From contig NC_079492.1 in NCBI RefSeq assembly GCF_020520425.1, positions 115,603,157 through 115,667,156 on the forward strand: DNA of 64,000 nucleotides, read 5' to 3'. This stretch comes from Spinacia oleracea. Lineage: Eukaryota > Streptophyta > Magnoliopsida > Caryophyllales > Amaranthaceae. The position numbers and the translations under genes are program-made. Below, in pieces: positions 1,040 to 63,124 of this stretch (position 1 is its first letter; each line of letters opens with the position of its first letter). Under the pieces are notes generated by a model, which was not told where the DNA came from, made no database searches, and saw nothing but the letters and a program-made list of their open reading frames with translations.

Positions 1040-1051
1040 TGGTATCACGAG
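1040..1051 (+). other. Primer-binding site of element 1
   Basis: TGGTATCA follows the LTR after a single G, as expected for a site complementary to the 3' end of initiator methionine tRNA. Only the first eight bases match the usual TGGTATCAGAGC well. Element 2 has the same TGGTATCA at the same 1-nt spacing. Confidence 0.85.
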
Positions 1052-1789
1052 CCCCTTATTATTTTCATAATCTAAATTGCATAAACATGGTTAAATATTA
1101 CAAATTTGCAAGAATTAAAAGGGGTGATTAATTTTCGTAATTGTTAATTAATTGCAAATTGCGTTTATTTAATTATACGTACGCAGTTTTTCGGCAGTTG
1201 CTTCGTTACTCATCCGAATTGAGTGATTTTTGTGTCAATTCCGCATGTAAAAGGCATTCTAAAATTTTGACAAAAAGAGTATTTTTCTGCCGAACCCAGA
1301 ATTCTCAAATTCGAAGCCTAACTATGACTTTTCGAAGGTTTTAGTTTTTCGAATGCAAAATTTCGTAAATTTAAGATGTTAAATTAAATATTTGCGATTC
1401 TTGTTGATAAATCTTGAATTTTTGATTGACCTACTGCATATGTTTAACAAGTTTGAATGCCTAGTCTTGTTAATTATGCAATCTAATTTGTAATTATGAT
1501 TAATTTGTTGAAAATTAGAATAATTTAGAATTAATTTGATTTTCATAATTAATTGTAATTTAATTAGAAACCTATGATTAAAAACCACCATAAAAATTGT
1601 AAATTTACGATAAATTTTAAATTTTTATGACCTAGACTTGAATCCATAACAATCGGAAATCAATTGGATAATAAATTTTCGATTTTTTCGCCCTAAAATT
1701 ATGAAATTAATATTATTTATTAATTTGTCATTAATTTTGAAAATAAATTTTAAATTTTTATGCGATTCGTTCATAAAACTTGCACGCAC

Positions 1790-2410
1790 GAAGCAATGGA
1801 CGCTTCGTGTTACCCTTAAGGGGTGTTGTATAATGCGGGCATGCGACGACGAGCAAGGGAGCTCGTCGCCCGTGCGGCACGAATGCAATGAGCAAGGGCG
1901 TAGTGCACGAGCACAAGGCAGCAGCCCTGCCTTGTGTCGTGTGCCACGAGCAATGAACGAATGGGCATGGGCGAAGAGCGAGCCAAGGCAGTCGCGTGTG
2001 GGCAGCAAGCGAGCTGCGCCACAACGCGCGCTGCCTCGCACAAGAGCGCGCAGCCTCGCGCGCAGCGAGCGCAAGCTCGCGTGCCACGAGCGCTGCGCCC
2101 AGCATTACTCGCGCGCACAGCGAGCGATGTCGCGCGCCCAGCGAGCGATGTCGCGCGCCCAGCGAGCGATGGCTCGCGCGCCCAGCGAGCGATGTCGCGC
2201 GCCCAGCGAGCGATGTCGCGCGCGCGCACTGCGAGCGATAGCTCGCGTGCGATGAGCGCTGGCGCGCGCAGCAAGCACCAATGCGTGCGGAGGCTTGCGA
2301 TAGGGAAGCAGCAGCTATGCGACGAGCGCATGGGCTGCGCGCACATGGCCAGCAATGGCTGTGTGCGTACGGCCCATGGGCGTGCAACGCGTAGGGTGTT
2401 TGCGTTACGA
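1790..2410. repeat. GC-rich tandem-repeat island in leader
   Basis: A sharply GC-rich insert in AT-rich DNA. Between about 2117 and 2240 a ~20-bp unit built on GAGCGATGTCGCGCGCCCA recurs about six times; outside it GCGCGC/GAGCAA motifs are less regular. It resembles in style, but does not copy, the GCGCACAGC array in this element's LTR. Element 2 has a smaller unrelated GC-rich patch (about 30000-30240) in its own leader. Confidence 0.75.
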
Positions 2411-2965
2411 TTAGATCGTTTTGAATGTTTAATTTGAAAATTTCAGTTCACGTAATTTTAATTAATTTTAAAATTAATAATTTGAATTATTTTCTTGGAT
2501 TTTAATTTTGAATATTATAATTATAATAAATGTTATTTATTCTAATTATTTTACTAAAATTAAAATCATGAATTAATTTAAATACGACTGAAATTAAATT
2601 AAATTTTTGGATTCAATTATAAATTGATATGAGCTTTAAATTTTAATTAAATTTGTATGTTTCCGGTTGGACTAGAAATACATTTTTATGTTTAAAATTG
2701 GTAAAGCATATGAATTTATTGGTTTAAGTGGGAGCGCTTTTTAGTCATAAACTCTTGATTAGGTCTACAAATCCTTAAGGTTAAAACAACTTGATTAGAA
2801 TTAATAAGGACTGAATAATTGGTAGATTATTGGTGCCCTTGATTAATTGCTGCAAATGTTTACGTGATGCATAATGTGTTTTACTAACCAGCTATGTGGG
2901 CCATTCATGATAATGAATGGGTGAATGGTATATATTGTATATGTACTGTTTTGCAGGTTATGAAG

Positions 2966-3199
2966 TGACTAGTATGGCCCAAATAGGATAGAAAATATGG
3001 TCTGCGTACCATTAATTTGAATGTAATTGGTCTAAAGTACCAAAGTTATTTTTCAATTCAAATATGGTCTGCGAACCATCAAATAGTTGTAATTAGTTAT
3101 AGCTTATCCTATTTGAAGAAAATGGTGCCTCCCACGGAGATTTTCAAGACGGACTTTGAAGTCAAAGCTTCAAGATGAAGTCGGGCCATACTAGATCAC
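2966..3199 (+). other. Conserved structured leader domain, element 1
   Basis: CTAGTATGGCCC (2969-2980) is exactly complementary to GGGCCATACTAG (3183-3194); the pairing extends outward through GTGA/TCAC with a one-base bulge. Just inside, CAAATAGGATA (2980-2990) pairs with TATCCTATTTG (3105-3115). Within lie hairpins ATGGT-CTGCGT-ACCAT (2997-3012) and ATGGT-CTGCGA-ACCAT (3064-3079). A third, TTGGT-CTAAAGT-ACCAA, lies between them, enclosed by ATTTGAAT...TTG/CAATTCAAAT. The outer arms and CTGCG-loop hairpins recur with compensatory changes in element 2. A role in RNA packaging, dimerisation or translation is inference. Confidence 0.7.
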
Positions 3200-3843
3200 A
3201 AATATCTTATGCATGTTTTAAGTTATTTATTGTTTTAAATATGTCTTAAAATGCATGAGATCAAAAGCTTGATTATGTTGCATGATTAAGGATTTTAGTT
3301 CACTTAAAATCTAACCAACATAGTAAGAGCCTTAAGTTCCAAACTTAAAAATTGAGTTAAAAGGTGCCATGCCAAAATATACACTTGCTTGGATATCCTT
3401 TACATCAATCTAGTAATAGTTTTCGCTCAGCGAGGTGTTACTTATTGGTCCTAAAGGGGCAAGGTACACAAATAATTGTGAGTACATGTTAGTTTTGGTG
3501 AAACTCAACGATATAAGTAAGGAGTCCTTTTATGTCGTGGCAAATTCGATAGGTTTACCTAATAAGTTCTTAGACGTACCTATCAACCAAGAATAGTTTC
3601 TAGACTATTAGCAAAAGGCTTTTGCTTACCTAAGATGTTCTAGGATTAAGTCGACAAACTGTGCTTAGTTCTTCAATGATTTTAGGATCTTGGAATCATT
3701 TTATTCACACCTGCCGGAACACACAACTTGAATAAAATGCTTAATAAACATTGAATTATGCATGTATGCTAGAATTTAAGTTTATTAAGAGAAACTGTGA
3801 ATGGTTATTTATTTGTTTATTCTTTTCAATTGTAGTTTTTAAT

Positions 3844-6800
3844 ATGGCAAACAACAATTCATTCAACATTCGATCAATTCTCGAAAAAGAGAAGTTGAAC
3901 GGGAAAAACTTCCTTGACTGGCAAAGGAACTTGCAAATAGTTCTTATGCAGGAAGGAAAGGAGTATGTCCTAGATGAGGCGATGCCCGAAGCTGCAGGCG
4001 ACGGGGTCACTCAGGCAGCCCTCAATCGTTGGATTGATGCCAACAAGGATGTGAAATGTCTAATGCTCGCCACCATGAGTGCGGATCTGCAGAAAACGTT
4101 CATCAACTCAGATGCTTTCACAATCATCAGTGAGTTGAAGAACATGTTCCAAGATCTGGCTCGAGTCGAAAGATTCGAGACTCATAGGCAAATTCTTGAG
4201 ACCAAGCTTAAGAAAGGCGAGCCCGTAAGTCCACATGTTCTCAAAATGATTGGACTCATTGAGAATATGAGTCGGCTGGATCAGCAATTTTCTCAGGAAA
4301 TGGCTATAGACACCATCCTCCATTCTCTTCATAGCGGGTATGATCAGTTCAAACTGAACTACAGTATGAATAGTCTGGACAAAACGCTCACTGAGCTTCA
4401 CGGTATGCTGAAGACCGCTGAAAAGACGCTCAAAAGTGATAAGCAGGATGTGCTTATGGTGCGTGGGGGCAAGTTCAAGAAATCTGGAAAGAAGAGGAAT
4501 GCTAAGAAAGGTGGCAACAAGGCCAGCCCAACTAAGCAAACTGGCGCCAAATCTGCAAAGAGGAAGGTCAGTCAACCCACTTCTGAATCCGAATGCTTCT
4601 ACTGCAAGAAGAAGGGGCATTGGAAGAGAGATTGCTTGAAGCTAAAGGAAGATCAGAAGAACGGAACAGTCGTTCCATCTTCAGGTATTTTCGTTATAGA
4701 CTGTATACTTGCTAATTCAACTTCTTGGGTATTAGATACAGGTTGTGGCTCACACTTATGTTCCAATCCACAGGGACTAAGAAGAAGTAGAAAGTTAAGC
4801 AAGGGTGAAGTCGACCTACGAGTGGGAAATGGAGCACGGATTGCTGCATTAGCTGTAGGAACTTACTATTTGTCGTTGCCCTCCGGGCTAGTTTTGGAAC
4901 TGGAAGAATGTTTCCATGTTCCAAGTCTTACTAAAAACATCATTTCAGTTTCTTGCTTAGATGCTAAGGGATTTTCCTTTATAATAAAAGACAATAGTTG
5001 TTCGTTTTATTTTAAAGAGATGTTTTATGGATCTGCTAGATTAGTCAATGGACTTTATTTATTAGATCACGACAAACAAGTATATAACATAAATACCAAA
5101 AAGGCCAAAAAGGATGATTCAGATCTCACCTATCTGTGGCATTGTCGATTAGGCCATATAAACTTGAAACGCTTAGAAAGACTTCAAAGGGAAGGAATTC
5201 TAGAACCATTTAACTTAGAGGATTATGGTAAATGCGAATCATGTTTACTTGGCAAAATGACAAAGCAACCTTTCTCTAAAGTTGGAGAAAGAGCAAATGA
5301 ACTACTGGGTTTAATCCATACAGATGTATGTGGACCAATGAGTACAAATGCTAGAGGTGGTTTCAGCTACTTTATCACTTTCACTGATGACTTCAGTAGG
5401 TATGGTTATGTCTACCTAATGAAGCATAAGTCTGAATCCTTTGACAAATTCAAGGAATTTCAGAGTGAAGTAGAGAATCAATTAGGCAAGAAGATTAAGG
5501 CACTGCTGTCTGATAGAGGCGGTGAATATCTGAGCTATGAATTTGATGACCATCTGAAAGAATGTGGAATTCTATCAGAATTGACTCCTCCTGGAACACC
5601 ACAATGGAACGGTGTGTCGGAACGGAGGAACAGAACCTTGCTAGACATGGTCAGGTCAATGATGGGTCAGGCCGAACTTCCATTAGAATTTTGGGGACAT
5701 GCACTAAATACAGCTGCACTCACTATAAATAGAGCTCCGTCTAAAGCTGTCGAAAAGACTCCATACGAATTATGGTTTGGAAAGCCTCCAAATGTGTCTT
5801 TTCTTAAGATTTGGGGATGTGAAGTATACGTCAAACGATTAATTTCAGACAAACTTCATCCAAAATCTGACAAATGTATCCTTGTGGGCTATCCAAAGGA
5901 AACAAAGGGGTATTACTTCTACAATACATCTGAGAACAAAGTGTTTGTTGCTCGAGATGGTGTCTTTTTGGAGAAGGATCACATTTCCAAAATGACAAGT
6001 GGGAGAAAAGTAGACCTCGAAGAAATTCGAGTCGAACAACAAACTCTAGAGAATGCTCAAGATGACATTCAGGATGAAACTCAGAGATCTTTAGAAGAAT
6101 CTGGTGAGAATCATGGTCAATCTAGAAATGTTACCCCGCGTAGATCGCAAAGATATAGATCTCAACCGGAAAGGTACTTGGGTATTTTGACGAACGAGAG
6201 CTATGACGTTCTATTACTTGAAAGTGATGAACCTGCGACTTACAAGCAAGCTATGACGAGCCCTAGCTCCAAGCAATGGCAAGAAGCCATGCAATCTGAA
6301 TTAGACTCCATGTCTGAAAACCAAGTATGGGATTTGGTCGATTTGCCAGATGGCTACCAAGCCATTGGAAGCAAATGGGTTTTCAAACTGAAAAAGGACA
6401 AGGATGGGAAACTTGAAGTTTTCAAAGCTAGATTGGTTGCAAAAGGTTACAGGCAAGTCCACGGTGTGGATTACGATGAAACCTTTTCACCAGTTGCAAT
6501 GCTAAAGTCTATTCGAATAATGTTAGCAATCGCTGCATATTACGATTACGAAATATGGCAGATGGATGTCAAAACTGCTTTCTTAAACGGCGTTTTAACA
6601 GAAACTGTGTTTATGACACAGCCTGAAGGTTTTGAGGATCCAAAGAATGCTAAAAAGGTATGCAAGCTAAAGAAATCAATCTACGGATTGAAGCAGGCAT
6701 CCAGGAGCTGGAATATACGTTTTGATGAAGCAGTCAGTGACTTTGGTTTCATCAAGAACGCGGACGAATCTTGTGTATACAAGAAGGTCAGTGGGAGCAA

Positions 6801-8673: not shown

Positions 8674-10133
8674 TGAAGGAAATAATGCCCTTGGTCCAAG
8701 TATGCATTCTATGTTAAGTCTAATAAATGCGGTTCAGTATTAATTGACAAGTTAATAATTCAGTGAGATCAAGTGAGCTGAATGCCTAGCTAGAGGCCGC
8801 TTCAGTTCAAGTGGAATTAATGATATTAATCCACAGCTTACTCTTGACTGAACCCGTAGGGTCACACAAATAGTACGTAAACGGATCAAGTATCTAATGG
8901 CATTAAATACTCCATCTATGAATATTCGGAACCGACGGATCTTGTTTTCAGTGGGAGCTAAGATCGTCACAGGCAAGAAATGAATACTCCGGAAACGATG
9001 ATATTGCCGGAAACGGAAATATGGATCGTATCGGAAATATAAATATTATCCAAGTCGTAGATGTTGCCGGAAACGGAAACATGGTACGTATCGGAAAATA
9101 TTATCGGAAATGGAAATATTGCCAGAATCGGAAATATTGCCGGAAACGGAAATATTGTCAGAATCGGAAATATTACCGGAATCGGAAAATAATTCCGGAA
9201 ACGGAAATATTAAATATTTGTTCGAAACGGAAATTAATTCCGGAATCGGAAATATTAAATATTGTTCGTATCGGAAATGAATTCCGGAATCGGAAAATTT
9301 AATCGGAAGCGCATCGTACGAATAAGCATCGGACGAGGCCTGCCGGACGAGGCCCAGCACGAAGCCAGGCCATCGCCCAGCAAGCCAAGCGCGCCGCACA
9401 AACAGCAAGGCCAGGCCCAGCAGGCTGCGCGCAGCGCGCAGCGCGCACAGCGCGCACAGCACGCGCAGCGCGCAGCGCGCACAGCGCGCACAGCACGCGC
9501 AGCGCACAGCGCGCACAGCGCGCGCAGCGCGCAGCGCGCGCGGGCGCTGAGTGGGCTGCTGCTCGCGCGCACGCATGAGGCCCATCGTGGCTGTCGTGCG
9601 TGTGTGTGCAAGTGTTTGTGTTCGTGCACGTTTCCTAAAACATGCAGAGTTCGGTTAATGATTAAATTCCTAATTCTAATTGATAAATTAATTAAATTAG
9701 AGTTCTTGTAGGATTCTAGGTTTGATTAATTTGTATCTGAATAGGATTTCGATTCCCTTTCCATACCGCTATAAATATGAGGCTAGGGCTCACAATTTAT
9801 AACACAAGTTTCAAAGTATTCAAAGTGAGTTTTTGAGAGAAAATTCAAACACACATCTTGCTCAAATTGCCGAAATTTTCTAGTACCTTAAGGGCGATTC
9901 TAGTTGGTCAATCTTAAGGCGGATCCGGACGTGCTGTGGACTATCTACGGAGGGACGACACTTGGAGTCCTAAAGACTTGTTCTTGTTCGGTTCGGGCGC
10001 AGCTAGGGAAGGCACGCAACAAAGAGTATGCATCTATTCTATGCTAAATGATTATGTGTAAATAATATGTTTTCCTGGGTTTATGGTTTTTTCCGCATGA
10101 TTTATGAATTGTCATATGTATCATAACCTAACA
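8674..10133 (+). repeat. 3' LTR of element 1
   Basis: 1460 bp, starting TGAAGGAAATAATG after the polypurine tract and ending CTAACA. Only the last 1079 bases have a partner in the window. It contains the CGGAA array (8990-9300), the GC-rich array (about 9415-9545) and a TATA box (9770-9778). It differs from the left copy by about 41 bases of extra GC-rich repeat and scattered substitutions. Confidence 0.93.
8990..9300. repeat. CGGAA-motif array in LTR U3
   Basis: About two dozen CGGAA/GGAAA words, many as CCGGAAACGGAAATATT or palindromic TTCCGGAA, recur every 10-18 bases upstream of the LTR TATA box. The left LTR has the same array from 1 to 245. Such clustered short repeats upstream of a promoter resemble an enhancer; no protein is identified that binds it. 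Confidence 0.7.
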
Positions 10134-11993
10134 GTATTTATAGTGTAGACTGGTAGAATTCCGATAGAATTATGATCTCTTCAACCAGATTTAAATCTCT
10201 TTTGTTTCTGGCTGAAACTGTATTGGGCGCAAGAAATTTCTCGCGCGCAACACCTGGGGGCAAGAATATTCTCGCACTGGTATTTGGGCGCAAGAATATT
10301 CTTGCGCTGCCCAGATCCGCTTTTTCCTGGAACTTTGATCTTTAACAGCTCATAACTTCTTCATACAAACTCGAATTCCAGAAACTAATATCTTGTTGGA
10401 AAGCTACGGAATCCAGCTTTCAAATGGCACCGGTCTTGCATCAATGGGATTCTTAAATCTCGAGTTATGACCCAAAGAGTGAAAGTCGGTCCGTTTTGGC
10501 AAAACCCAACTAAATGTCTTATAACTTATTCGTTTTATATCGGATTTGGGCTTATGATAAGTCTATGAAAAATCTTATTCCAAGGCCTATACAACCACGT
10601 AATGTGCGTGATCCAAATCATAATTTATAAGAATTTTAAATAATTAAACTTACGGCCCGACCCAAGTCAAATAAAATAAAATAATGAAAAATTCCACCGT
10701 TAGCCCCTTCGTGCAAAAGTAAGCCCAAAACCCAAAATTAGGCCTTGAACTGAAACTGAAGCAAAAGTGAAAAAATCGATGCAACGAGGCATGGGCTTGC
10801 TCGCAGCCATCGCTGTTATAACTACGAAAGATGAACATAGTGCATAAATGAGTAAGTTACCAGTTGTTTATCTTTGTTACCACGACGAGTTCCTCTTCTT
10901 TTTGTAATTTTTCTCTCTAGCTGATTAGCATCGTACATTATGCCGCCTGTATTGTCAGGACTCTTCTTAGTTGGAGCCTTGTCGGGTGTTTTCTTTTCCA
11001 CCGGACTCGTCACAAGATATTTTTTCTTTTTATTGACCACATCAAGAATTGAGAATTCCATTAAAGTGTCCATACCATCAGGAAACTGGGATGTCGTGAA
11101 GTGGATATTTCTAATGTTGATTGTTGGACACCATCGTCATCCAAATATACTCCGTTTTTATCCGGGTCAATAATCAACTTCCTTTTCACATAATTCCCGA
11201 CTGGATTTAAGAACGGAGAACATCCTCAATTACCCTTTAGGCTGTTGTCGTTGATAGAGAATGGGGAATTCGGAGAACATCCTCGATTACCGTCCCTTGT
11301 TTTCATCGACTTAATTATGAGGTCCTTCACTTGATTCAATGTGTAACCCATGTTGGATATCCTCCAATTGAGTTGAATCACATGGTTTTCTATAACACTC
11401 ATTCGCTACTCAAGCAACCATGACATAAGAGAAAACAAATAAGCAATTATTCAAACCCAAAAACAAATGAAAGGCTTTTGTAATTCAAAATTTAATCTAC
11501 TTACATCTAAAACAATTTCAAGGGAACCTTTTCCATTTGCATCTTGTATCCCTTCGAACATGACCAGTACGGTAGTTTTCCGTTACTAACCTGTATTTGG
11601 GAAGTAATCCGGATACCTTCGCTTGCATTTACAAAGAAACAAGGACTCATAATCATCATAAATTCTACAAATTATAAATTAATGTACAATTCAATTAGGG
11701 TTTAATGCTCAATTCACCTGAGAAGGGGCTTAAATTGAAATTAAAGAGAGCGAAATTAGGTTTTAGAAGAATAGAATTTATTAGGGTTTGAATGTACAAT
11801 TCTGGGAGTGGGTTAAATAGAGAGAAATTAGGTTTTAGAATAATAGAATTTAGGGTTTGAATGTACAATTATAGGTGTAGGTTAAACAAGAAAGTGGAGG
11901 GCAGAAAGCGGGAAATAAAGTAGAAGGGTTTCACCGTCGGGAGAAAAAATGGGGAATTTACGGACACGTTGTACTAAATCATCATTTTTAATT
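10134..11993. other. Intergenic, decayed repeat DNA
   Basis: No intact gene is seen. At 10220-10310 GGGCGCAAGAATATTC-type words repeat three times, with self-complementary AAGAATATTCTTGCG. On the minus strand, about 11360-10822 has broken open stretches such as NPVGNYVKRKLIIDPDKNG and an 83-codon frame rich in Lys (11073-10822). This may be a decayed coding fragment, but I cannot assign a family and stops separate the pieces. Confidence 0.4.
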
Positions 11994-23317: not shown

Positions 23318-23968
23318 TGTAGGAACATATAGATGCATAAAGCGGAATTTCAGGAAACAATTTCCTAACATCTATCACAGGATCTCATGCATAACAATAG
23401 TATAGATCAGATTAAGTCGAAAGAATAATCACCTTTGAAGCGTGTTCTCCCGTTCGTATGCAAGCTTCGAAGATCTTAGAGCCCCACTTGTTGCTCCTCT
23501 ACTCAGTCCACAAGCACGAATTGAATCCCACGTATGCTAGTACGGAAGAGAACGATCACAATCTGTCTCTTGCTTTGTTTGGGATGTACGGCGTTTAGAG
23601 AATTAGAATTAGGGTTTTGGTGTTTTCCTTTTTGTCAGATATTGAATGAACGTGATTTCTAAATCCCTGACATTATAACTATTATAATGTGAGAGTTTTA
23701 GGTTAACACAAAACCAAAGCCCAACATTCTTCCCTTAACAGACCGGTTGCCATCGGGCCTTTTGGGCCCATTCCAATTAATGCTTATATGTGTGACCTTA
23801 TAGGATTAATATATTTTAGTTGTAGGTCCAATCAATATTGTCCTGCTAATCACATTTATTCTCTAGCAAGCAAATATGATTACTAAAATAATTAACTTAT
23901 TATCTTCATAATTAATTCCTATTTATATTTAGTAATTGCCGGAAATGTCTAAGGACATAATTCCTTCA
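23318..23968 (-). repeat. 3' LTR of element 2
   Basis: 651 bp, reading TGAAGGAATTATGTCC to ...TTCCTACA on the minus strand. I saw no difference from 30767-31417 on visual comparison. In FBL3 orientation the LTR adds GTG AAG GAA TTA TGT CCT TAG to the interrupted frame at the other end (31417). Confidence 0.95.
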
Positions 23969-23982
23969 ATCTCCCACTTGTC
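23969..23982 (-). other. Polypurine tract of element 2
   Basis: GACAAGTGGGAGAT directly precedes the 3' LTR on the minus strand, the expected plus-strand primer for reverse transcription. Confidence 0.85.
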
Positions 23983-24728
23983 CGAAGACAAGAACGCAAT
24001 GCTAAATTCCTTAAGTCTCTTAATGCCAAAATTTGATAACACACTGTTATTCTCAAACTCTAGTTTCTTGATCGCCGAGTTCGAACTGTTCAAATAAAGA
24101 TTAACTTTTAATCCCATTCCGCATGGCCATGCAATTTTCAGTTCTCGCTCATCAAGAGGCCCAGACACCATTCCTATCAAATAGGAGGACTTATTCACTC
24201 TTGTATGACCATAACTCCCACTCAATTCTTAGCCCACCTGATCATTGCCTTTATAACCTCCTTTTACGGCGCGGCGTTTAACAGCGTCAAAGTTAAACTA
24301 ATTGTCTCGTGGTTATTAAGACATACTCATGTCTAAGGAATCCACTAAATATAGAAGTTTGATTCTACTTTTAGAATCTAGTTAGGTCAAGTCACAATGC
24401 ATCAAGTATACATCCATATAATCAATTAGACATCCCTATGTCTCCATAGCCCATGGAACTGCACTATCAATTAATTACATGCTAGTCTTCTCATAAATCA
24501 CTTATGTCCAATTTAGTGATTCAGACTAGGGACTTAATAAGTTGTGATTTCAGTTCACTTTAAAGGGTTCCATTATCAAAACGTTTTCGATAATCCTATT
24601 TGAAAACACAAGTTATTTGGACATTTTATTTAATACTAAACCAAACAATTAAATAAGAATGAACTTTTATTGATAAACATTCAAAGCATAATAAATGTCT
24701 TTACAATTGTAAACATAAAGTAAACAAA
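23983..24728 (-). other. 3' noncoding region of element 2
   Basis: Contains the two blocks shared with element 1: 24292-24245 (CCGTAAAAGGAGG then TATAAAGGCAA) and about 24146-24063, with palindromic GCATGGCCATGC at 24121-24132. A 98-codon frame at 24225-23929 has no recognisable domain and runs into the LTR, so it is not called. Confidence 0.7.
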
Positions 24729-27700
24729 CTAAAGCCATTCTCCCATATGCCTAAGCCCCATAGACCTAGTATGACTCTCATGCTTAGGTTGAGCAAGCGG
24801 TTTAGTCAGAGGATCAGCCACGTTATCCTCAGTATGAACCTTGCTTACTTTCACATCCCCTCTTTCAACGATCTCTCGAATAAGATGGAATCTCCTGAGC
24901 ACATGTTTGGATTTTTGGTGCGATCTGGGTTCCTTGGACTGGGAAATGGCACCATTGTTGTCACAATACAACTCAATGCCATTTTCAATGCTAGGAACTA
25001 CACCAAGTTCACTAATGAACTTTTTGATCCAAACAGCTTCTTTTGCTGCATCACTTGCTGCAATATACTCAGCCTCTGTTGTAGAATCTGCGATGGTACT
25101 CTGCTTAGAACTCTTCCAGCTCACAGCCCCTCCATTGAGACAAAATATGAAACCAGATTGTGATCGGAAATCATCTTTGTCACTTTGGAAGCTTGCATCG
25201 GTGTATCCAGTGGCAACCAACTCATTATCTCCACCATAGACCAAGAAATCATCCTTAGTCCTTCTTAAGTACTTAAGGATATTCTTTGCTGCCATCCAGT
25301 GCGCCTCTCCTGGGTTTGACTGGTATCTGCTGCACATACTCAAAGCATATGCAACATCCGGTCGAGTGCATACCATGGCATACATAATGGACCCTACTGC
25401 AGAGGCATAAGGAACATTACTCATGCGCTTGACCTCATCAGGTGTCGAAGGACACTGAGTCTTGCCAAGTGAAATGCCATGTTGCATGGGAATGAAACCT
25501 CTTTTGGAGTTTTCCAGCTTGAACCTTGCAAGAACCTTATCAATATAAGTCTCTTGGCTAAGTCCAATCAGCCTTTTGGATCTATCTCTATGGATCCTTA
25601 TTCCCAAGATGTATTCAGCTTCTCCTAGGTCTTTCATGGAAAAACAACTTTTAAGCCATTCCTTGACTGAATCAAGCATGGTCTTGTCGTTTCCTATGAG
25701 AAGTATGTCATCCACATACAAGACTAGGAAAGCAATACTACTCCCACTCAACTTCTTGTATATACAAGATTCCTCTTCATTTCTGAGGAAGCCAAAAGAT
25801 TTGACTGCCTCATCAAATCTGAGGTTCCAACTCCGGGATGCTTGCTTAAGCCCATAAATGGACTTCTTAAGCTTGCAAACTTTTCTTGGACTGTTTGGAT
25901 CTTCAAAACCTTGTGGTTGTGTCATGTACACATCCTCTTTCAAGAACCCATTCAAGAAAGCGGTTTTGACGTCCATCTGCCAGATCTCATAGTCATGAAA
26001 GGCAGCAATCGCAAGAATTATCCTAATGGATTTCAGCATGGCTACTGGTGAGAAGGTTTCATCATAGTCAATACCATGAATTTGTCTAAAACCTTTTGCC
26101 ACTAGTCTTGCCTTAAAGACATCAATGTTTCCATCTTTGTCCTTTTTCAGTTTGAAAATCCATTTGCAACCTATGGGTTTAACCCCATCAGGCAAAGCAA
26201 CCAAGTCCCATACTTGATTTTCAAACATCGAATCCATTTCGGATCTCATGGCTTCAAGCCATTTCTTGGAGTCTTGACTCGTCAAAGCATTTGTGTAGCT
26301 AGTAGGTTCCTCATGTTCTAAAATCTCTATTTCAGAACTTTCAGTCAAAAGGAAATCAATATATCTCTTTGACGGAATGACAGTCCTACTAGACCTACGT
26401 TGGGGAACAACAGGAGAAGTTTCCACCTCATTAGGTTGAGGGACTTCGCATGGATTATCTCCAAGTGGGACGGTAGAAGGCGCATGAATGGAATGTACCG
26501 CCTCCTGAGCATTTTCATGCTGGGTCGTCTCTGACGAGGTGTGAACCTCATCCATTTGTTGCTCATCTCGAATTTCTTCGAGATATACATTACTCCCACT
26601 TGTTTTTCTGGAAATAAACTCCTTTTCCAGAAAGACACCATCGCGAGCAACAAACACTTTGTTTTCGCTTTGGTTGTAGAAGTAGTATCCCTTAGTCTGT
26701 TTTGGGTAACCCACAAAAAGACACTTATCGGACTTGGGTGAAAGCTTATCAGAAAGTAAACGTTTTACATAAACTTCACAACCCCATGTCCTTAGAAAAG
26801 ACAATTTTGGAACTTTTCCAGTCCACATCTCATATGGCGTCTTTTCTACTGCTTTGGACGGAGCTCTGTTGAGTGTGAATGCCGCTGTTTCAAGCGCAAA
26901 TCCCCAAAATGAGGCAGGAAGGTTAGCAAGACTCATCATGGACCGAACCATATCTAATAAAGTTCGATTCCTTCTTTCGGAAACCCCATTCAACTGTGGT
27001 GTCCCTGGTGGAGTCAATTGCGAAAGTATTCCACAATCTTTCAAATGATCACCAAACTCTTGAGATAAATATTCACCACCACGATCGGATCGCAATGCTT
27101 TAATTTTCTTTCCAAGTTGGTTTTGTACTTCATTTTGGAATTCCTTGAACTTTTCAAAGGATTCCGACTTATGTCGCATGAGGTAAACATATCCAAATCT
27201 GCTCACATCATCAGTAAAAGTAATGAAATACCCGTACCCTCCCCTAGCCAAAGTACTCATAGGTCCGCAAACATCAGTATGTATGAGGGCTAAAAGATCA
27301 TTGGCCCTTTCACTTGAGCCTGTGAAAGGAGACTTTGTCATTTTCCCCATTAAGCAAAACTCACATACTTCAAATGATTCAAAATCAAATGATTTGAGAA
27401 TTCCATCCTTATGAAGTTTCTCTATGCGCTTTGAGCTTATGTGGCCTAATCGACAATGCCATAGGTAAGTAGGGTTCAAATCATTTGGTTTGTGTTTCTT
27501 GTTTTCTATGTGATAGATATGGTTTTGTAAGTCTAGTACATACAAACCATTTGATAATTTAGCAGAGACATAGAACATACCATTCAAATATGCTGAACAA
27601 CAATTATTCATAATTTGAAATGAAAAACCTTCCGAATCCAAAATCGGAATAGAAATTATGTTCTTGGTAATAACTGGAACGTAATAACAATTATAAAGTT

Positions 27701-28766
27701 CTAATATTAAACCAGAAGGCAAGCGTAAACTATAATCTCCTACAGCTAAAGCAGCAACTCTTGCTCCATTGCCTACTCGGAGATCCACTTCGCCTTTGCT
27801 CAAGCTCCTACTTCTTTTTAGTCCCTGCACATTACCAATAATGTGAGATCCACAAGCGGTATCAAATACCCAAGAAGCAGTTGTAGCTAAATTAACTTCT
27901 ATGACATAGATACCTGAAGTTAAAGCACCAGTCTTCTTATCCTCCAGATATTTGGGGCAGTTCCTCTTCCAATGACCAATCTTGTGGCAGTGGTAGCACT
28001 CATGTTGAGCAGCTACCTTAGCCTTGGGAGTGGCCTTTGGCTTGGTTGAAGAGTTCTCATTGGCAACTACCTTGCCCTTGTTCTTCTTCATGGGAGCCCC
28101 TTTCTTCTTGAACTGCTTACCTTTACTAACCATTAGAACATCCTTATGTTTAGGTTTACTTGGTAAGTTTCTCTCAGCCTGAATTAGTGAACCATGCAAC
28201 TCTTGCAGGGTAGCCTCCCCTCCTTGCATGTAGAAGTTCAACTTAAAGTTATGAAAATCTTCAGGCAAGGATCTGATGACTATGTCAGTTGCCAGGTCCT
28301 TAGGATAAGGGAAACCCAATTTCTCCATGGTCTGAAAATGTCCAATCAAATCGAACACATGCGGACCAACGGGCTTCCCCTCTTCCAACTTGGAATCCAG
28401 AAGTTTGCAGTTTGCTTCAAATCTCTCCAATCTAGCATTTTTCTGAAACAAAGTTTTCAGTTGCTGGATTATGCTGTAGGCATCCAGACCATCAAAACGT
28501 TTTTGATACTCTGGTTCCATGCAAGCAAGCATCAAGCATGTTACTTGCAAGGAGTTATCCTCTAGAGTTTGTCTAGCTCGCTTTTGAGCTGCAGTAGCAT
28601 TTTCTGGCAAGGGTTCAGGGAGAGGATTGTCAAGAACACTTTCTTTTCCTTCCGCTCTGAGAACAATTCTCACAGCCATTTGCCATTGTAGGAAGTTGGT
28701 AGCATTCAGTTTGTCTTTTTCAATTAGAGGACGCAAGTTAAAAGTAGAGTTGTTTGCACCAGACAT
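24729..28766 (-). CDS. Copia gag-pol polyprotein, intact
   Basis: 1345 residues from MSGANNS to ...MGEWL, no stop or frameshift. Order: Gag (about 1-250); zinc knuckle CYHCHKIGHWKRNC (about 265-280); aspartic protease; integrase zinc-binding LWHCRLGH (about 435); DDE integrase core (TDVCG, LRSDRGGE, GVSERRN; about 500-620); RT (about 860-1100; TAFLNG, YVDDILLIG); RNase H (about 1190-1330; TDASFQ, TEAEY, CDNNGA). It would copy and integrate the element from cytoplasmic particles. Oddity: the protease active site reads DTACGSH (codons GAT ACC GCT) where element 1 and retroviral-type proteases have DTG/DSG. The start nine codons upstream (28793) is less likely: it precedes the TTGTAG acceptor-like site and lacks similarity to element 1. 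Confidence 0.95.
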   Translation of the reverse strand: MSGANNSTFNLRPLIEKDKLNATNFLQWQMAVRIVLRAEGKESVLDNPLPEPLPENATAAQKRARQTLEDNSLQVTCLMLACMEPEYQKRFDGLDAYSIIQQLKTLFQKNARLERFEANCKLLDSKLEEGKPVGPHVFDLIGHFQTMEKLGFPYPKDLATDIVIRSLPEDFHNFKLNFYMQGGEATLQELHGSLIQAERNLPSKPKHKDVLMVSKGKQFKKKGAPMKKNKGKVVANENSSTKPKATPKAKVAAQHECYHCHKIGHWKRNCPKYLEDKKTGALTSGIYVIEVNLATTASWVFDTACGSHIIGNVQGLKRSRSLSKGEVDLRVGNGARVAALAVGDYSLRLPSGLILELYNCYYVPVITKNIISIPILDSEGFSFQIMNNCCSAYLNGMFYVSAKLSNGLYVLDLQNHIYHIENKKHKPNDLNPTYLWHCRLGHISSKRIEKLHKDGILKSFDFESFEVCEFCLMGKMTKSPFTGSSERANDLLALIHTDVCGPMSTLARGGYGYFITFTDDVSRFGYVYLMRHKSESFEKFKEFQNEVQNQLGKKIKALRSDRGGEYLSQEFGDHLKDCGILSQLTPPGTPQLNGVSERRNRTLLDMVRSMMSLANLPASFWGFALETAAFTLNRAPSKAVEKTPYEMWTGKVPKLSFLRTWGCEVYVKRLLSDKLSPKSDKCLFVGYPKQTKGYYFYNQSENKVFVARDGVFLEKEFISRKTSGSNVYLEEIRDEQQMDEVHTSSETTQHENAQEAVHSIHAPSTVPLGDNPCEVPQPNEVETSPVVPQRRSSRTVIPSKRYIDFLLTESSEIEILEHEEPTSYTNALTSQDSKKWLEAMRSEMDSMFENQVWDLVALPDGVKPIGCKWIFKLKKDKDGNIDVFKARLVAKGFRQIHGIDYDETFSPVAMLKSIRIILAIAAFHDYEIWQMDVKTAFLNGFLKEDVYMTQPQGFEDPNSPRKVCKLKKSIYGLKQASRSWNLRFDEAVKSFGFLRNEEESCIYKKLSGSSIAFLVLYVDDILLIGNDKTMLDSVKEWLKSCFSMKDLGEAEYILGIRIHRDRSKRLIGLSQETYIDKVLARFKLENSKRGFIPMQHGISLGKTQCPSTPDEVKRMSNVPYASAVGSIMYAMVCTRPDVAYALSMCSRYQSNPGEAHWMAAKNILKYLRRTKDDFLVYGGDNELVATGYTDASFQSDKDDFRSQSGFIFCLNGGAVSWKSSKQSTIADSTTEAEYIAASDAAKEAVWIKKFISELGVVPSIENGIELYCDNNGAISQSKEPRSHQKSKHVLRRFHLIREIVERGDVKVSKVHTEDNVADPLTKPLAQPKHESHTRSMGLRHMGEWL

Positions 28767-30757
28767 GATAACTACAATAAAAAAATAAAGCAAGATTCAA
28801 TATAATGTTTATCAAAAGTAGCAATTAAACAAATTCAATTCACTACCACCCTTTATTCAAAATTAGAAGTCCCCATTGAATAAAGAATTAACCAAGATCC
28901 CCTCCCACTACAATCAAACGGACTTTGGCCCTGCTACTTTAATTTATAGTATTCGAGGTAAGTAAACATTTTACTAATTATAACTAATTATAACTCTTGG
29001 TAGACAGGTTAACAACTCTTTGTATTTTCCTATCTCTTAGCTTCAAAACCCAAAACTTTGTATTTTGATAGTTTTGTTGAGTTAAACCATACATTGACAT
29101 GTAAGTTTCAAAAACCTACCCTACTATCCCCGGAATTATAAGCAACACCCTGCTTTGGCAGAACCTATTACTCATGATCTAAGGCTTTATAGGCGTTGTA
29201 TGGAAAAGCACTTAAACTCAATATTATTTTGGGACCTAAGTTTACTATGTTGGTTAATTTAAAAGTGAACACATTGCTTTAAATAACCACATACATAAAC
29301 TCAATAAGCATTTTAAGGCAATATAAAATGCATAAAAATTAAATGTGATCCTAGTATGGCCCCTAAAAAACAAGCTCAAATCTTCTTGGGTTTCTGTTCA
29401 TCTTTCTTGGATCTCCATCCTTGAATTTCTGATTGAACCTTCTTACTCCATCGAGCTTATAATACGAACTTTATAATCTAATTTAAACTTTTAAATTAAA
29501 TTACAACAATACAGAACGATGCGCAGATCGTATTTCAAAGTTTACAAGAATACAAAACGATACGCAGATCGTATTTTCTATCCTATTTTGGGCCATACTA
29601 GTCACGTGCCTGTAACAAAATATCATATATTCCATACACGCATATCATATAATATCAAAATATTATCATTCATTCATTTACTTAATTAAAGTAAATGACC
29701 CTAATTTACTATTAATCATATTAATAATTATCTTATTTTTAATTAATTAGCCTAACTTTAATTAATTAAAACAATTATCTTATTATTTTGATTCAACCAA
29801 CATTTCAACGTGTCTAATGTATATATGGAATTGTTTGGTCAATATGCTTTGTAGTTTGCGGTACTAACGAAGTAAACCAAAACCCAATGGATCATGTATT
29901 CACGTGATTTTGAAAACCGAGTCACAGCACCACAAAACCCCAATTCAATTAGGTAGCGCCTACTTCATCAGTTCATCCCCTTCACCATAGAATACAACCA
30001 CGTCGGAAACCAAGCAACAATTACGAGGTTTCTCCCGCAGCTTCGCTTTTCGGCATCGATCTAGTAGCAGCAACGGCAAAACGAGCCACCGCGCAGCCAC
30101 CAGCACAGAACAGAGTCACCACGGAGCATCCACGCAACTGTTGCGCGAGCCCACCGATTTTCCCGCTTGTGCAGCCTTGCTCTACAACCCCGAGACCCCA
30201 GAAAACCTTGCCCCCGCACAAGCTGCGCACAATCCCCTTTTCTCCCACTAAATTCGTGCAACAATTTGCGTGAATTTGGTAAGATTTCAAGCAACAATTT
30301 GATTGAATTTGGGGGGTGTGTAATTTTCATAAAATTAGGGTTCATAGAAGAATTGGGCATAATTGGGTACGAAATCGAATTAAATAGGCTAAATAATCAA
30401 ATTATTTACATATAAATTTCGAATTGTTCTTGATAATTTTCAGATTTATATTTACATGAAAATCGAATATTTTCAATGTCTTTATAAATTTGTACAATTA
30501 ATCGTAATTAGTTGCATAAATTTAAGAAATAAATCAAAACTTTGTTGTGAAGCTCAAGTTTCGGGTATGGCAGATGTGTTTTGACGAGAGTACTTTGTAT
30601 AAGATCAATATTTTATACAACCCAAACAATTTAAAATCAATATTTTAATTAATACATATATAATTTTCTGTCGTAATTGAATCAAAATAATCAAGAATAT
30701 GCATCAAAAATTTAAAACTTTAATCATGATCAAAATTAAGGTATGCAAGGAGCTAAC
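28767..30757 (-). other. Untranslated leader of element 2
   Basis: About 2 kb from primer-binding site to gag. It contains the structured domain (29605-29345), a TTTTGTTACAG acceptor-like site just before it, and a second acceptor-like tract, T-rich and ending TTGTAG, 5 nt before the gag ATG. A GC-rich patch at about 30000-30240 holds a 99-codon frame with no recognised domain; it may be captured DNA. Confidence 0.75.
29345..29605 (-). other. Conserved structured leader domain, element 2
   Basis: On the minus strand GTGACTAGTATGGCCC (29605-29590) pairs with GGGCCATACTAG (29362-29351) plus GATCAC. Enclosed are hairpins ACGAT-CTGCGT-ATCGT (plus coordinates 29557-29572) and ACGAT-CTGCGC-ATCGT (29516-29531). 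The inner AAATAGGATA arm is present but its partner, seen in element 1, is not found here. The last hairpin ends about 750 nt before the gag ATG, against about 765 nt in element 1. Confidence 0.7.
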
Positions 30758-30765
30758 TGATACCA
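30758..30765 (-). other. Primer-binding site of element 2
   Basis: TGGTATCA on the minus strand, one nucleotide inside the 5' LTR (30767-31417), complementary to the initiator methionine tRNA 3' end. Confidence 0.85.
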
Positions 30766-30766
30766 C

Positions 30767-31417
30767 TGTAGGAACATATAGATGCATAAAGCGGAATTTC
30801 AGGAAACAATTTCCTAACATCTATCACAGGATCTCATGCATAACAATAGTATAGATCAGATTAAGTCGAAAGAATAATCACCTTTGAAGCGTGTTCTCCC
30901 GTTCGTATGCAAGCTTCGAAGATCTTAGAGCCCCACTTGTTGCTCCTCTACTCAGTCCACAAGCACGAATTGAATCCCACGTATGCTAGTACGGAAGAGA
31001 ACGATCACAATCTGTCTCTTGCTTTGTTTGGGATGTACGGCGTTTAGAGAATTAGAATTAGGGTTTTGGTGTTTTCCTTTTTGTCAGATATTGAATGAAC
31101 GTGATTTCTAAATCCCTGACATTATAACTATTATAATGTGAGAGTTTTAGGTTAACACAAAACCAAAGCCCAACATTCTTCCCTTAACAGACCGGTTGCC
31201 ATCGGGCCTTTTGGGCCCATTCCAATTAATGCTTATATGTGTGACCTTATAGGATTAATATATTTTAGTTGTAGGTCCAATCAATATTGTCCTGCTAATC
31301 ACATTTATTCTCTAGCAAGCAAATATGATTACTAAAATAATTAACTTATTATCTTCATAATTAATTCCTATTTATATTTAGTAATTGCCGGAAATGTCTA
31401 AGGACATAATTCCTTCA
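30767..31417 (-). repeat. 5' LTR of element 2
   Basis: 651 bp, apparently identical to 23318-23968. It abuts target duplication CACTT (31418-31422) within FBL3 exon 5. Confidence 0.95.
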
Positions 31418-34120: not shown

Positions 34121-34498
34121 GGTCGTTTGGTTGGAGAAGGGGAAAGGGAAAGAGAATGAGAATGGGAATCAAGGAGAATGGAATGAAAATTCTTTGTTTA
34201 GGAATGTTGTTTGGTTTGTCTATTTTTCTCCTCTCTCTCTCCTAAGTAAGATAATAAATAATAAATAATAAATAATTATTAATTAATATTTATTATTTAT
34301 TATTTATTACTAATTATTTATTAATCATTATTTATTATTTATTTATTATTTAATATTCATTATTTATTATTAATTATTTATTATTAATTATTTATTATTA
34401 ATTATTAATTACTCCCTCCGTCCCGGAATACTCGACCCGGTTTGACCGGCACAGAGTTTAAGGGACTTGAATTGACTTATTTAATTTAATAGATAGTA

Positions 34499-34751
34499 CT
34501 ACCTCCGTTTCTTAATGTTCTTTACGCTTTGAAATATGTGTCCAAAATATGAAAACTTTGGTCGTGGATTCTCACTGTTATACATCAAAATGTTATCATG
34601 TAAGATATTGTTAGATTGGTCTCGTTATGTACTTTAATATATCAAATTTTTATAATTTTTCCACATACGAAAATGGATATATAAGTCGTTAAATATTGCA
34701 TTGGAGTCCGTGCAAATAGTAAGCGTAAAGAACATTAAGGAACGGAGGTAG
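34499..34751. mobile_element. ~255-bp MITE (level 3), CTACCTCCGTT family
   Basis: CTACCTCCGTTTCTTAATG to its inverse ...AACGGAGGTAG, with TA on each side. Relatives lie at 60663-60918 and 62870-63124. It is inserted in the level-2 MITE only a few bases from where another MITE entered the 17784-18429 copy. Confidence 0.85.
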
Positions 34752-34794
34752 TAGTTGATAGTGGGGTATTATTTTAATGTAGTTAGTAGGAAAT

Positions 34795-40160: not shown

Positions 40161-41107
40161 CCTAATCTATTTCGTGACGTGTAAGACTTCATGAATAAAT
40201 TAGTAACCAGTATTACTATTCAAAATTAAAAGGTATTATTTATTTTTCTTGCATCATCAAATAGATTTTTTAATTTATGTTCTTGCAACAACCAGCAGCA
40301 AAGTATTCATATTTTATAATTTTTGATATTATTTGATCAAAAGAGTTCATTCTTTTCATGTTCTTCTCCTCCAAATTCTAAGTTCCTGATCAAAATTCCT
40401 ATAAAGGGTGGGGTTGGGGGAGAGTAGGAGTTGAATTTTTAATTATTTTTTGTATGGAGTAGGGGGTAGGTGGGTTAATAGGGGTGGAGTGAGAAATAAT
40501 ATAATATTGTTAGAATATTTTCATTTTTAGAAACAGGTCAAGTATTACGGGACGGCCCGATAAGGAAAACAGGTCAAGTATTCCGGGACGGAGGGAGTAT
40601 TAATTATAATTATTAATTATTCATTATTTATATTTATTATTTATTATTTATTATTTATTATTAATTACTAATTATAAAGTATTAATTATTAATTACTAAT
40701 TATAAATTACTAATTACTAATTATTAATTACTAATTACTAATTATTAATTATTAATTATTAATTATTAATTATTAATTATTAATTATTAATTATTGATTA
40801 TTGATTATTAATTACTAATTACTAATTACTAATTATTAATTGTTAATTATTAATTATTAATTATTAATTATTATTAATTATTATTAATTATTATTATTTA
40901 TTATTTATAGAGAGTGGTCAAGGGAAAGGGAATGGGAATGGCAAACCTTGGGGGGTGGTAGGGTATCATTGTAGAGGGATTTGGGGGCAAGTGAAAAAGA
41001 AAATAGGGTAAAGGGAATGACAAAAACCACCAAACAAACAACAACAAATGGAATGAAACCTCATCATTCCCTTTCCCTTTCCTGAAAACCCCCAACCAAA
41101 TGCCCCC

Positions 41108-60292: not shown

Positions 60293-62300
60293 ATGCCTGC
60301 AGCTGTCTTATCTGAGAATACCTACCAAGGAGTTTATCTCATGCCCAAAGATAATACCCCTAGTTCTATTTCATTCAGAAGGTAACGTATTAATTATTCC
60401 TCTCTATCTCTTCCTCTTTTCTTTTATTGTACGTGTAATTGTTGTGTATTTTTTTTTGAAACCGGTAACGCGAAAATACATTATTAGGACTCCCTCCGGC
60501 CCTCATTTTGGCCCTCACTAGCTATCTCTAATATTAAACTTTCTACCACATTATATTCATGTATTATATTTATATGGGAAACCAATTAAACCATTCCTTC
60601 ACCCCCTTTTGATCGGAACCATATTTCATCAGTAATGTAAATCCCTATATTATATATACATACTACCTCTGTTCCTTAATGTTCTTTACGCTTTGGAATA
60701 TGTGTCTAAAGTATGAAAACTTTGAACGTGGATTCTCACTGTTATATACATCAAAATGTTATCATGTAAGATCTTGTTATATTGGTCTCGTTATCTATTT
60801 TCAAAATATCAAACTTTTATAAATTTTTCACATACGGAAATGAATATATAAGTCGTTAAATATTGCATTGCATTCCGTGTAAATAGTAAGCGTAAAGAAC
60901 ATTAAGGAACGGAGGTAGTACATTTTTTGATACATGCATACTCCCTCCTTGAATTCCAATCTGTGTGGTTTTCAAATTTTAATTAATTGCATAAAACTAA
61001 TACTCCATACTTCCTACGTTAAGAAAAATTTGAAATAATTTTACAAAGGTGTACGAAGTAGTGAGAATCAAAACAGTCAAAGTTTACATCGAAAAGTCAA
61101 ATGTGCAACTACTCCCTCCGTCCCTTAATACTCGACCTATTTTGACTTTTTCACTATTCACATAATTTACTTTGACCCTATTTTATTTCTAGTATATGAA
61201 AACAAATGTTGACCATCTTAATATATATTTTTAAAATATTAATATTTTATAAGTTTTTATAATATGTAGTTAAAGAAATTGGTGGTCAAAGTTGTGCACT
61301 GACAAGCGTGACCGGTCAAAACAGGTCGAGTATTAAGTGACGGAGGGAGTATTTTTTAAAATCGGGGGCTACGGCCTACGGGTATGAATGTGTTAGTGTT
61401 ATTTACACACAGTACATCTAACTAGAATATAATTAATATTCTTTTGGTGACTTGGTGTGTAGGTTGGAGGGAAAAGTTGCAATAGTAACGGGTGGAGCAA
61501 GAGGAATTGGAGAAGCAACGGTAAGACTATTTGTTAAGCACGGTGCTAAGGTGGTGATTGCCGACGTGGAAGATACCCTAGGCAAATCCTTGGCGGACTC
61601 TCTCTCTCCGTCCGCCACCTTCGTCCACTGCGACGTCAGCCTCGAAGACGACGTCCACAACCTAGTGGACACGGCTGTGTCACTGTATGGAAGACTAGAT
61701 ATACTCTTAAACAATGCCGGGGTGTTAGGGTCCCAAACTAAGTGTAACAAAAGCATCCTTAACTTTGACCCTAACGAATTTGACAGCATTATGTCGGTCA
61801 ACGTTAAAGGGGTAGCCTTAGGGATCAAGCATGCTGCCCGTGTGATGATACCACGAGGCGGTGGCTGCATCATCTCGACCTCTAGCGTGGCGGGCGTCAT
61901 GGGTGGGATGGGCCCCCACGCCTATACGGCGTCAAAGCATGCGATTGTGGGCTTAACAAAGAACACGGCGTGTGAGTTAGGGCGGTTCGGGATCCGAGTT
62001 AATTGTATATCTCCCTTTGGGGTGGCAACTTCCATGCTTATCAATGCATGGAGAAGTGATGAAGATGAAGATGATGAAATGGAATCGGGATTGGGATTGG
62101 GATTGCCACGTGAGGAAGAAGTGGAGAAAACGGAGGAGTTTGTAAGAGGATTGGCTACTTTGAAAGGTGTTACTTTGAAACCAAAGGACATTGCTGAGGC
62201 TGCACTTTACTTAGCTAGTGATGAGTCTAGGTATGTCAGTGGTCATAATCTTGTTGTTGATGGTGGATTTACTACCTCCAAAAATTGTGTTGCTTTATGA
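60293..62300 (+). CDS. Short-chain dehydrogenase/reductase, SDR110C type
   Basis: Two exons, 60293-60381 and 61463-62300, joined in phase 2, giving 308 residues. Classical SDR features: cofactor loop TGGARGIG, acidic VVIADVED after beta-2 (NAD preference), NNAG, Ser of STSSVAG, catalytic YTASK, and [11 protein letters not shown]. The C-terminus [13 protein letters not shown] is typical of the ABA2/SDR2-SDR3/secoisolariciresinol-dehydrogenase-like group, which oxidises alcohols of hormones or specialised metabolites. The short first exon (MPAAVLSEN...) resembles the Arabidopsis SDR2 start. An acidic insert [15 protein letters not shown] follows the catalytic core and looks lineage-specific. 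The substrate cannot be told from sequence. Intron 1 carries two MITEs. Confidence 0.93.
60663..60918. mobile_element. ~255-bp MITE in SDR intron
   Basis: CTACCTCTGTTCCTTAATG to AACGGAGGTAG, TA on both sides. Same family as 34499-34751 and 62870-63124. Confidence 0.85.
61112..61349. mobile_element. Stowaway-like MITE in SDR intron
   Basis: CTCCCTCCGTCCCTTAATAC to ATTAAGTGACGGAGGGAG, with TA at 61110-61111 and 61350-61351. Inverse relative of 20739-20998. It ends 113 bp before exon 2. Confidence 0.85.
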
Positions 62301-62822: not shown

Positions 62823-62869
62823 TATATCATTATTTATGTGTGTCTAACTCTTTATATACCAAAAACATA

Positions 62870-63124
62870 CTACCTCCGTTTCAAAAAATTCTTTACAGTT
62901 ACTATTTGCACGAACTCCAATGCAATATTTAACCACTGATATATTCAATTTCGTATGTGGAAAAATTATAAAAAGTTGATATTCTGAAAATACGTATCGA
63001 TACCAATCTAATAAGATCTTACATGTAACGTTTTGATGTATATAATAGTGAGAATTTACGGTCAAAGTTTTCATATTTTGGACACATATTCCAAAGCGTA
63101 AAGAACTTTCAGAAACGGAGGAAG
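62870..63124. mobile_element. ~255-bp MITE, third copy of family
   Basis: CTACCTCCGTTTCAAAAAATT to TTTCAGAAACGGAGGAAG, flanked by TA, in opposite orientation to 60663-60918 (ACTATTTGCACGAACTCC shared in inverse). Confidence 0.85.

Follow-up and report, generated by a model that had tools for sequence, protein, structure and literature searches.

Two diverged copia retrotransposons in spinach share a short stretch of leader in which two small hairpins lie between a pair of long inverted arms. The question raised by this locus is whether the shared stretch is a selected RNA structure, and what such a structure would do for the elements that carry it. The locus is a 64,000-nt stretch of the Spinacia oleracea genome (NC_079492.1, positions 115,603,157 to 115,667,156 of the forward strand), referred to here as the window; positions are those of the window unless another locus is named. 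Judged from sequence comparison across three families in one genome, the domain is very probably an RNA fold maintained by selection in the genomic transcripts of this copia lineage, a reading given a probability of roughly 0.93.

The two elements

Pfam places both elements in copia, with hits of Retrotran_gag_2 to the gag pieces and of RVT_2 to the RT pieces. Their boundaries are as follows.

1-1040 and 9055-10135, plus strand: LTRs of element 1, 95.6% identical; the start of the first LTR may lie outside the window
1040..1052, plus strand: TGGTATCA, a primer-binding-site-like motif directly after the LTR of element 1, which we take to be a tRNA primer site
31417-30767 and 23968-23318, minus strand: LTRs of element 2, identical over 651 nt

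Element 2 (23318-31417) has an open frame of 1354 aa, which together with its identical LTRs indicates recent insertion. The frame of element 1 is split. The two gags are 46% identical and the RT pieces 78% identical. An alignment of the Gag proteins reveals a CX2CX4HX4C zinc knuckle in both, which Pfam calls for element 1 only. The element 2 gag has named protein relatives in Spinacia, with 85-86% identity over 37% of its length, and in Amaranthus, with 76% identity over 87%.

Self-comparison of the window aligns element 1 with element 2 in two stretches of pol (73-75%) and in one stretch of leader (93%), which joins 2965-3008 of element 1 to 29605-29561 of element 2. This leader piece is therefore better conserved than pol. 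The gag ATG stands at 3844 in element 1 and at 28766 in element 2, preceded by leaders of 2803 nt with 73 ATGs and 2000 nt with 39 ATGs, respectively. The leader of element 1 is AT-rich except for a GC-rich region at 1760-2400 with short repeats (cgagcgatgtcgcgcgccc).

The window also contains repeats of other kinds. Two related arrays with a 14-nt unit lie about 6.3 kb apart (34186-34439 and 40579-40919), and another tandem array has a 35-nt unit (58155-58410). Dispersed related repeats occur in both orientations at 34497-34753, 60661-60927, and 62861-63133, with TACTACCTC starting at 34497 and 60661; these are MITE-like.

A clamp enclosing twin hairpins

The domain consists of two closing arms, together called the clamp, and two small hairpins between them. 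Arms were located by sequence and fold, and hairpins by sequence, fold, and shuffle tests.

2965..2980, plus strand: 5' closing arm of element 1 (fam1), GTGA followed by CTAGTATGGCCC, paired with 3183-3199 in the computed fold
2981..3114, plus strand: inner helix found only in fam1, AAATAGGATA (2981-2990) with TATCCTATTT (3105-3114), from the computed fold
2997..3012, plus strand: hairpin 1 of element 1, ATGGT-CTGCGT-ACCAT
3064..3079, plus strand: hairpin 2 of element 1, ATGGT-CTGCGA-ACCAT
3183..3199, plus strand: 3' closing arm of element 1, GGGCCATACTAG followed by a bulged A and TCAC
29590..29605, minus strand: 5' closing arm of element 2 (fam2), GTGA followed by CTAGTATGGCCC
29557..29572, minus strand: hairpin 1 of element 2, ACGAT-CTGCGT-ATCGT
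29516..29531, minus strand: hairpin 2 of element 2, ACGAT-CTGCGC-ATCGT
29345..29362, minus strand: 3' closing arm of element 2, GGGCCATACTAG followed by a GA bulge and TCAC

The preliminary description placed perfect arms about 200-230 nt apart in both elements, and exact 12-nt arms are indeed found at 2969-2980 and 3183-3194 on the plus strand and at 29601-29590 and 29362-29351 on the minus strand, with gaps of 202 nt in element 1 and 227 nt in element 2. These are the sole exact copies in the window. At up to two mismatches, seven arm sites occur against 2.1 expected, a number that 0 of 100 shuffles reached. GTGA and TCAC extend the arms past a bulge of one base (A) in element 1 and two bases (GA) in element 2, so that the clamp is a bulged helix of 15-16 bp. 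By eye, the fam1 inner helix has no partner in element 2 (W2) or in L022.

The two mini-hairpins per element also lie where they had been described, with a loop of CTGCG plus one base on stems of ATGGT/ACCAT in element 1 and ACGAT/ATCGT in element 2, and the last hairpin ends 765 nt (element 1) and 750 nt (element 2) before the gag ATG, as originally given. Between the two elements, pair 2 of the stem changes from T-A to C-G and pair 4 from G-C to A-T, on both sides. The earlier count of four hairpins bearing these changes stands as an observation, but the four are not independent cases. By eye, the element 2 hairpins both fall within a repeat, about 36 nt long, whose units are nearly identical.

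The loop core TGCG is kept in most copies, and the first loop base is mostly C, at times A, G, or T. Each hairpin is near-palindromic, with a predicted homodimer energy of -14.5 to -18.7 kcal/mol versus -2.8 to -4.8 kcal/mol for the single strand; self-pairing of UGCG needs two G-U pairs. When folded alone, hairpin 1 of element 2 prefers another register, ATACG/CGTAT.

Copies in the spinach genome

The exact 12-nt arm CTAGTATGGCCC occurs 36,666 times (18,290 + 18,376) in the 894-Mb host genome, compared with 9 (5 + 4) for a reversed-pattern control. Arms followed by CTGCG 10-40 nt downstream number 14,450 (7061 + 7389) genome-wide, and the control gives 0 + 0. The main sample comprises 68 loci, picked by exact arm from the early listed plus-strand matches of contig 1, so rare families are missed. 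Both arms, at up to two mismatches, enclose the domain in 66 of the 68, while the domain is interrupted in L021 and L064. It is also found at nine of ten further loci outside the arm-plus-CTGCG listing (interrupted in L076). All six element-2-like loci added later have both arms within two mismatches, with L089 cut at its first base.

Three leader families are distinguished by their stems. Fam1, the type of element 1, accounts for 60 of the 66 loci and usually has ATGGT/ACCAT in both hairpins, with single copies departing from it. Fam2, the type of element 2, has ACGAT/ATCGT in hairpins 1 and 2. Fam3 accounts for the other six loci (L007, L008, L020, L022, L027, and L042); its 5' arm ends in GGCCA, hairpin 1 is ACGGT/ACCGT, and hairpin 2 is ATGGT/ACCAT (ATAGT/ACCAT in L008). 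Fam3 thus shows the change at pair 2 in one hairpin alone, hairpin 1, and both of its stems remain paired. A hairpin 1 with pair 4 changed on both sides has 182 matches in the genome, and since all 100 among the matches listed resemble element 2, this change looks like one old event.

Two findings would have spoken against the RNA reading: a domain present in two copies only, or stems that change without compensation. The genome instead holds thousands of copies, and the third family keeps both stems paired. Scanning of viral contigs found no relatives. A scan of genome contigs with an 80-residue RT piece returned six plant-like contigs in bacterial assemblies, none of which has paired arms at the spacing of the domain. 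Plant-type copia sequences L001-L006 come from contigs filed under bacteria (Solirubrobacter, Labilibacter, Streptomyces, and Geminicoccus) and are likely contamination.

Covariation and folding of the domain

Compared with dinucleotide shuffles, the domain folds at z-scores of -6.2 for element 1, -4.4 for element 2, and -4.8 for fam3. In an ungapped three-family test of the hairpins, the observed value was reached by 9 of 1000 column shuffles for hairpin 1 and by 5 for hairpin 2. This test has three rows, with L018 and L069, which have no second loop, outside them.

A wider alignment of 16 copies combines both window elements with 14 of the 68 loci, chosen for variety, and leaves out L053, L019, and L027. 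Under a model of two local hairpins within the clamp, 98.0% of cells are paired, and three of the eight unpaired cells (out of 400 pair cells) reflect the two-base bulge of element 2 falling out of register in the alignment. The model contains four pairs with two-sided changes and nine two-sided cells, each reached by 0 of 500 shuffles. One measure runs in the opposite direction: the alignment shows 7 further pair types versus 7.9 in shuffles, a value reached by 500 of 500. The stem counts leave out a fuzzy-match hairpin count, which missed hairpins. The clamp itself has no two-sided change in the 16 copies and therefore contributes no covariation.

Computed folds favor a duplex of hairpin 1 with hairpin 2 within the same clamp in all three families. 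In the 16-copy alignment, this duplex leaves 96.8% of cells paired and has four two-sided cells, compared with nine in the local model. Fam3 favors the local hairpins, since it breaks one pair of the duplex (5 of 16 rows) with its local stems still paired, and the duplex is therefore not taken as the conserved state. The proposal of a selected RNA structure is borne out by paired changes in three families, by thousands of copies, and by folds beyond those of shuffles.

Further structure between the domain and gag

The leader is structured over about 900 nt, of which the domain is one part; the structure continues to about 80-105 nt before gag. At least four more hairpins lie in this interval, and those named F, C, D, and E are conserved in each of the three families; they were placed by alignment and stem-pair count.

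3413..3441, plus strand: hairpin F of element 1, kept in three families with compensated changes
3592..3609, plus strand: hairpin C of element 1
3610..3626, plus strand: hairpin D of element 1
3697..3739, plus strand: hairpin E of element 1, within the lowest-z sense window (-11.3)
29142..29171, minus strand: hairpin F of element 2
28961..28995, minus strand: hairpins C (28995-28976) and D (28975-28961) of element 2
28849..28887, minus strand: hairpin E of element 2

In an alignment of element 1, element 2, and L022, 120-column windows were each compared with 200 column shuffles. Seven of 23 overlapping windows reach z-scores of -4.4 to -11.3; all seven lie between the domain and gag and contain F, C, D, and E. 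The first windows of the domain itself are weak in this generic three-family alignment (z -0.3, -2.6, and -1.8) because the clamp is longer than a window and hairpin 2 is misaligned, which is why the hairpins have their separate ungapped test.

A stem-pair count covers 56 hand-placed pairs in the clamp, the twin hairpins, F, C, D, and E. Between elements 1 and 2, ten pairs are compensated on two sides and three changed on one side; element 1 and fam3 differ by six and one, and element 2 and fam3 by eleven and three, with no pair broken in any comparison. Random redistribution of the 3' changes, clamp excluded, matched these results in 0, 3, and 0 of 20,000 trials, respectively. Since the 56 stems were chosen after they were seen to pair, the blind window test and the ungapped hairpin tests are fairer. 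Summed over 16 windows, the energy is -60.9 for the sense strand versus -39.7 for the antisense strand. Single antisense windows are also low, with z-scores down to -15.7, because stems show on both strands, and only the summed energy separates the two. An Rfam search with the element 1 leader (2300-3900) returned only two weak matches, far below gathering scores.

Leader and gag are decoupled

The sequence downstream of the 66 sampled domains varies far more than the leader. Twenty-four loci have gags at 89-100% identity to that of element 1, in some cases over only part of it, eight have gags at 40-44%, four at 30-33%, and three fam3 loci have gags at 71-74%. At the remaining 27, the 1.2-1.7 kb read downstream of the domain contains no recognizable gag. 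The leader that follows the domain in the 60 fam1 loci is 83-99.8% identical to that of element 1 over at least 407 nt, which indicates that the domain comes with its leader. The eight loci with gags at 40-44% (L016, L029, L033, L039, L040, L059, L066, and L071) are leader/gag chimeras, whose leaders match that of element 1 at 89-99%.

One interior is shared by 24 of the 27 gag-less loci; L011, L017, and L038 are unlike it. Matches to the reference L036 run at 92.5-96.7% over about 1 kb in 18 loci, at 88-99% over 547-822 nt in L013, L010, L012, and L068, and at 78% over 511 nt in L008, whose leader is of the fam3 type. In the 24 shared-interior copies, the longest frames free of stops measure 48-63 aa, and the interior appears to be decayed gag-pol. 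In a divergence test of 24 gag-less copies, the median is 4.3% for the domain and 5.4% and 3.8% for the interior, so the domain is not clearly slower; the means are 4.2% versus 9.3% and 12.8%, in a set that includes the non-matching L038. The leader may be kept in gag-less copies through inertia.

A near-identical leader beside a diverged gag, or beside none that is seen, is what a cis-acting genomic-RNA signal would show. Because gag-less copies keep the leader, a role for the genomic RNA is favored over a role in gag translation, without proof and in a sample chosen by exact arm.

Proposed role and alternatives

On genomic RNA, the domain lies between the primer site and gag, 1.2-1.9 kb after the primer site. 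Familiar retroviral signals sit nearer to the primer site than this, which counts against a packaging role. From the sequence data, there is nevertheless about an even chance that the leader to which the domain belongs, carried also by gag-less copies, acts in cis on the full-length genomic RNA and serves its packaging and dimerization. The twin hairpins, as near-palindromes with a potentially self-pairing loop core, would start dimerization, bind the Gag nucleocapsid, or do both; Gag binding by these hairpins is putative. RNAs bearing the leader would then be packaged, and its retention by elements with diverged gag or none would admit their RNA to shared particles, with gag-less copies presumably mobilized in trans. 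Co-packaging would in turn give rise to the observed chimeras. A more far-reaching version, in which the clamp and twin UGCG hairpins are a shared RNA entry ticket by which several copia families with diverged Gags, together with Gag-less parasites, dimerize through the loop core, are co-packaged, and so create chimeras, is speculative and rather doubtful.

The domain might instead control gag translation as an internal ribosome entry or shunt structure through the AUG-rich leader. The length of the leaders, their 73 and 39 ATGs, and a structure that continues almost to gag would suit this function, and structured leaders are known in plant pararetroviruses (compare PMC12786077). However, 24 of the 66 copies keep the leader with no gag in the 1.2-1.7 kb read, and a short upstream frame that ends at the clamp is not conserved by eye, which makes translation control unlikely. 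A CaMV-type shunt with such a frame was rejected, as by eye the frame is present in element 1 (W1), L007, and L020 and missing in element 2, L008, and L012. Control of splicing or export is also conceivable, since the domain lies between two acceptor-like sites and might retain or export unspliced genomic RNA.

2947..2956, plus strand: TTTTGCAG, a candidate 3' splice site just upstream of the domain
3825..3835, plus strand: TTGTAG, a candidate 3' splice site shortly before the gag ATG (3844), with similar sites by eye in element 2, fam3, L003, L004, and L005

By eye, 8-13 nt separate the end of an acceptor-like CAG from CTAG in each family, and a TAG or CAG precedes the gag ATG by 0-9 nt in all three as well as in L003, L004, and L005; pararetroviral leaders recruit export factors (PMC12786077). 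T-rich, AT-rich leaders readily yield acceptor-like sites, however, and inspection by eye found no donor site shared by all families, so this function has a low probability. An origin as DNA, either a fold-back insert or a recently recombined block that merely looks structured, would explain why the clamp is a perfect inverted repeat near-identical across families, and leader/gag shuffling does occur. It is nonetheless highly improbable: the interior of the domain differs among families yet keeps its pairing, the domain travels with the leader in the 60 fam1 loci, and the summed window energy favors the sense strand. Packaging and dimerization of the genomic RNA remain the preferred role. The domain, abundant and covarying, offers a defined target. 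Its natural variation, in thousands of copies with three variants of the stems and some copies lacking gag, opens the packaging specificity of plant retrotransposons, their parasitism, and their recombination to direct test.

Comparison with known systems

A literature search, thin on subscription journals, found no published description of the domain. Gammaretroviruses have a double hairpin with identical GACG loops. The spinach domain resembles it in having neighboring hairpins with the same short loop and a G-C core that may pair between molecules; its loop is a different one, and no homology is claimed. The CaMV pararetrovirus leader is likewise long, rich in AUGs, and closed by a big stem (compare PMC12786077), but the short frame before its stem is not conserved in the spinach leaders.

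Another copia leader, at L004:1741-2190, has four repeats that by eye each bear one and the same small hairpin (CCAYCC..CTTCGGTGG) before a gag of 37% identity. Copia leaders may more widely feature repeated hairpins that have a single loop in common. An 11-nt inverted pair in the L004 leader was set aside as near chance by estimate.

In the literature found, packaging or dimerization signals of plant LTR retrotransposons are named only for BARE, and a recent review discusses RNA pools, granules, and host factors as routes to packaging (PMC12786077). A precedent for the proposed role is barley BARE2, which produces no Gag but is packaged by BARE1 and reportedly retains dimerization and packaging signals (PMC3735527). 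Like the spinach elements, BARE is a plant copia, and its signals are reported to persist in a parasitic subfamily that lacks Gag and relies on packaging in trans (PMC3735527). The likeness is one of description. BARE2 has an 8-bp deletion of the start codon, whereas the gag-less spinach interior that was read has no long frame.

Yeast Ty1, also copia-type, has a structured 5' domain of its genomic RNA with PAL palindromes, a pseudoknot, and a packaging region at +230-580 (PMC8396678). Palindromes in structured RNA, which are dimer sites in Ty1 and candidate dimer sites in spinach, are common to both systems, and the Gag binding is that of Ty1 (PMC8396678). The Ty1 domain lies at the 5' end of the RNA with the primer site, whereas the spinach domain lies 1.2-1.9 kb farther, in a non-coding leader, and has a clamp and twin hairpins.
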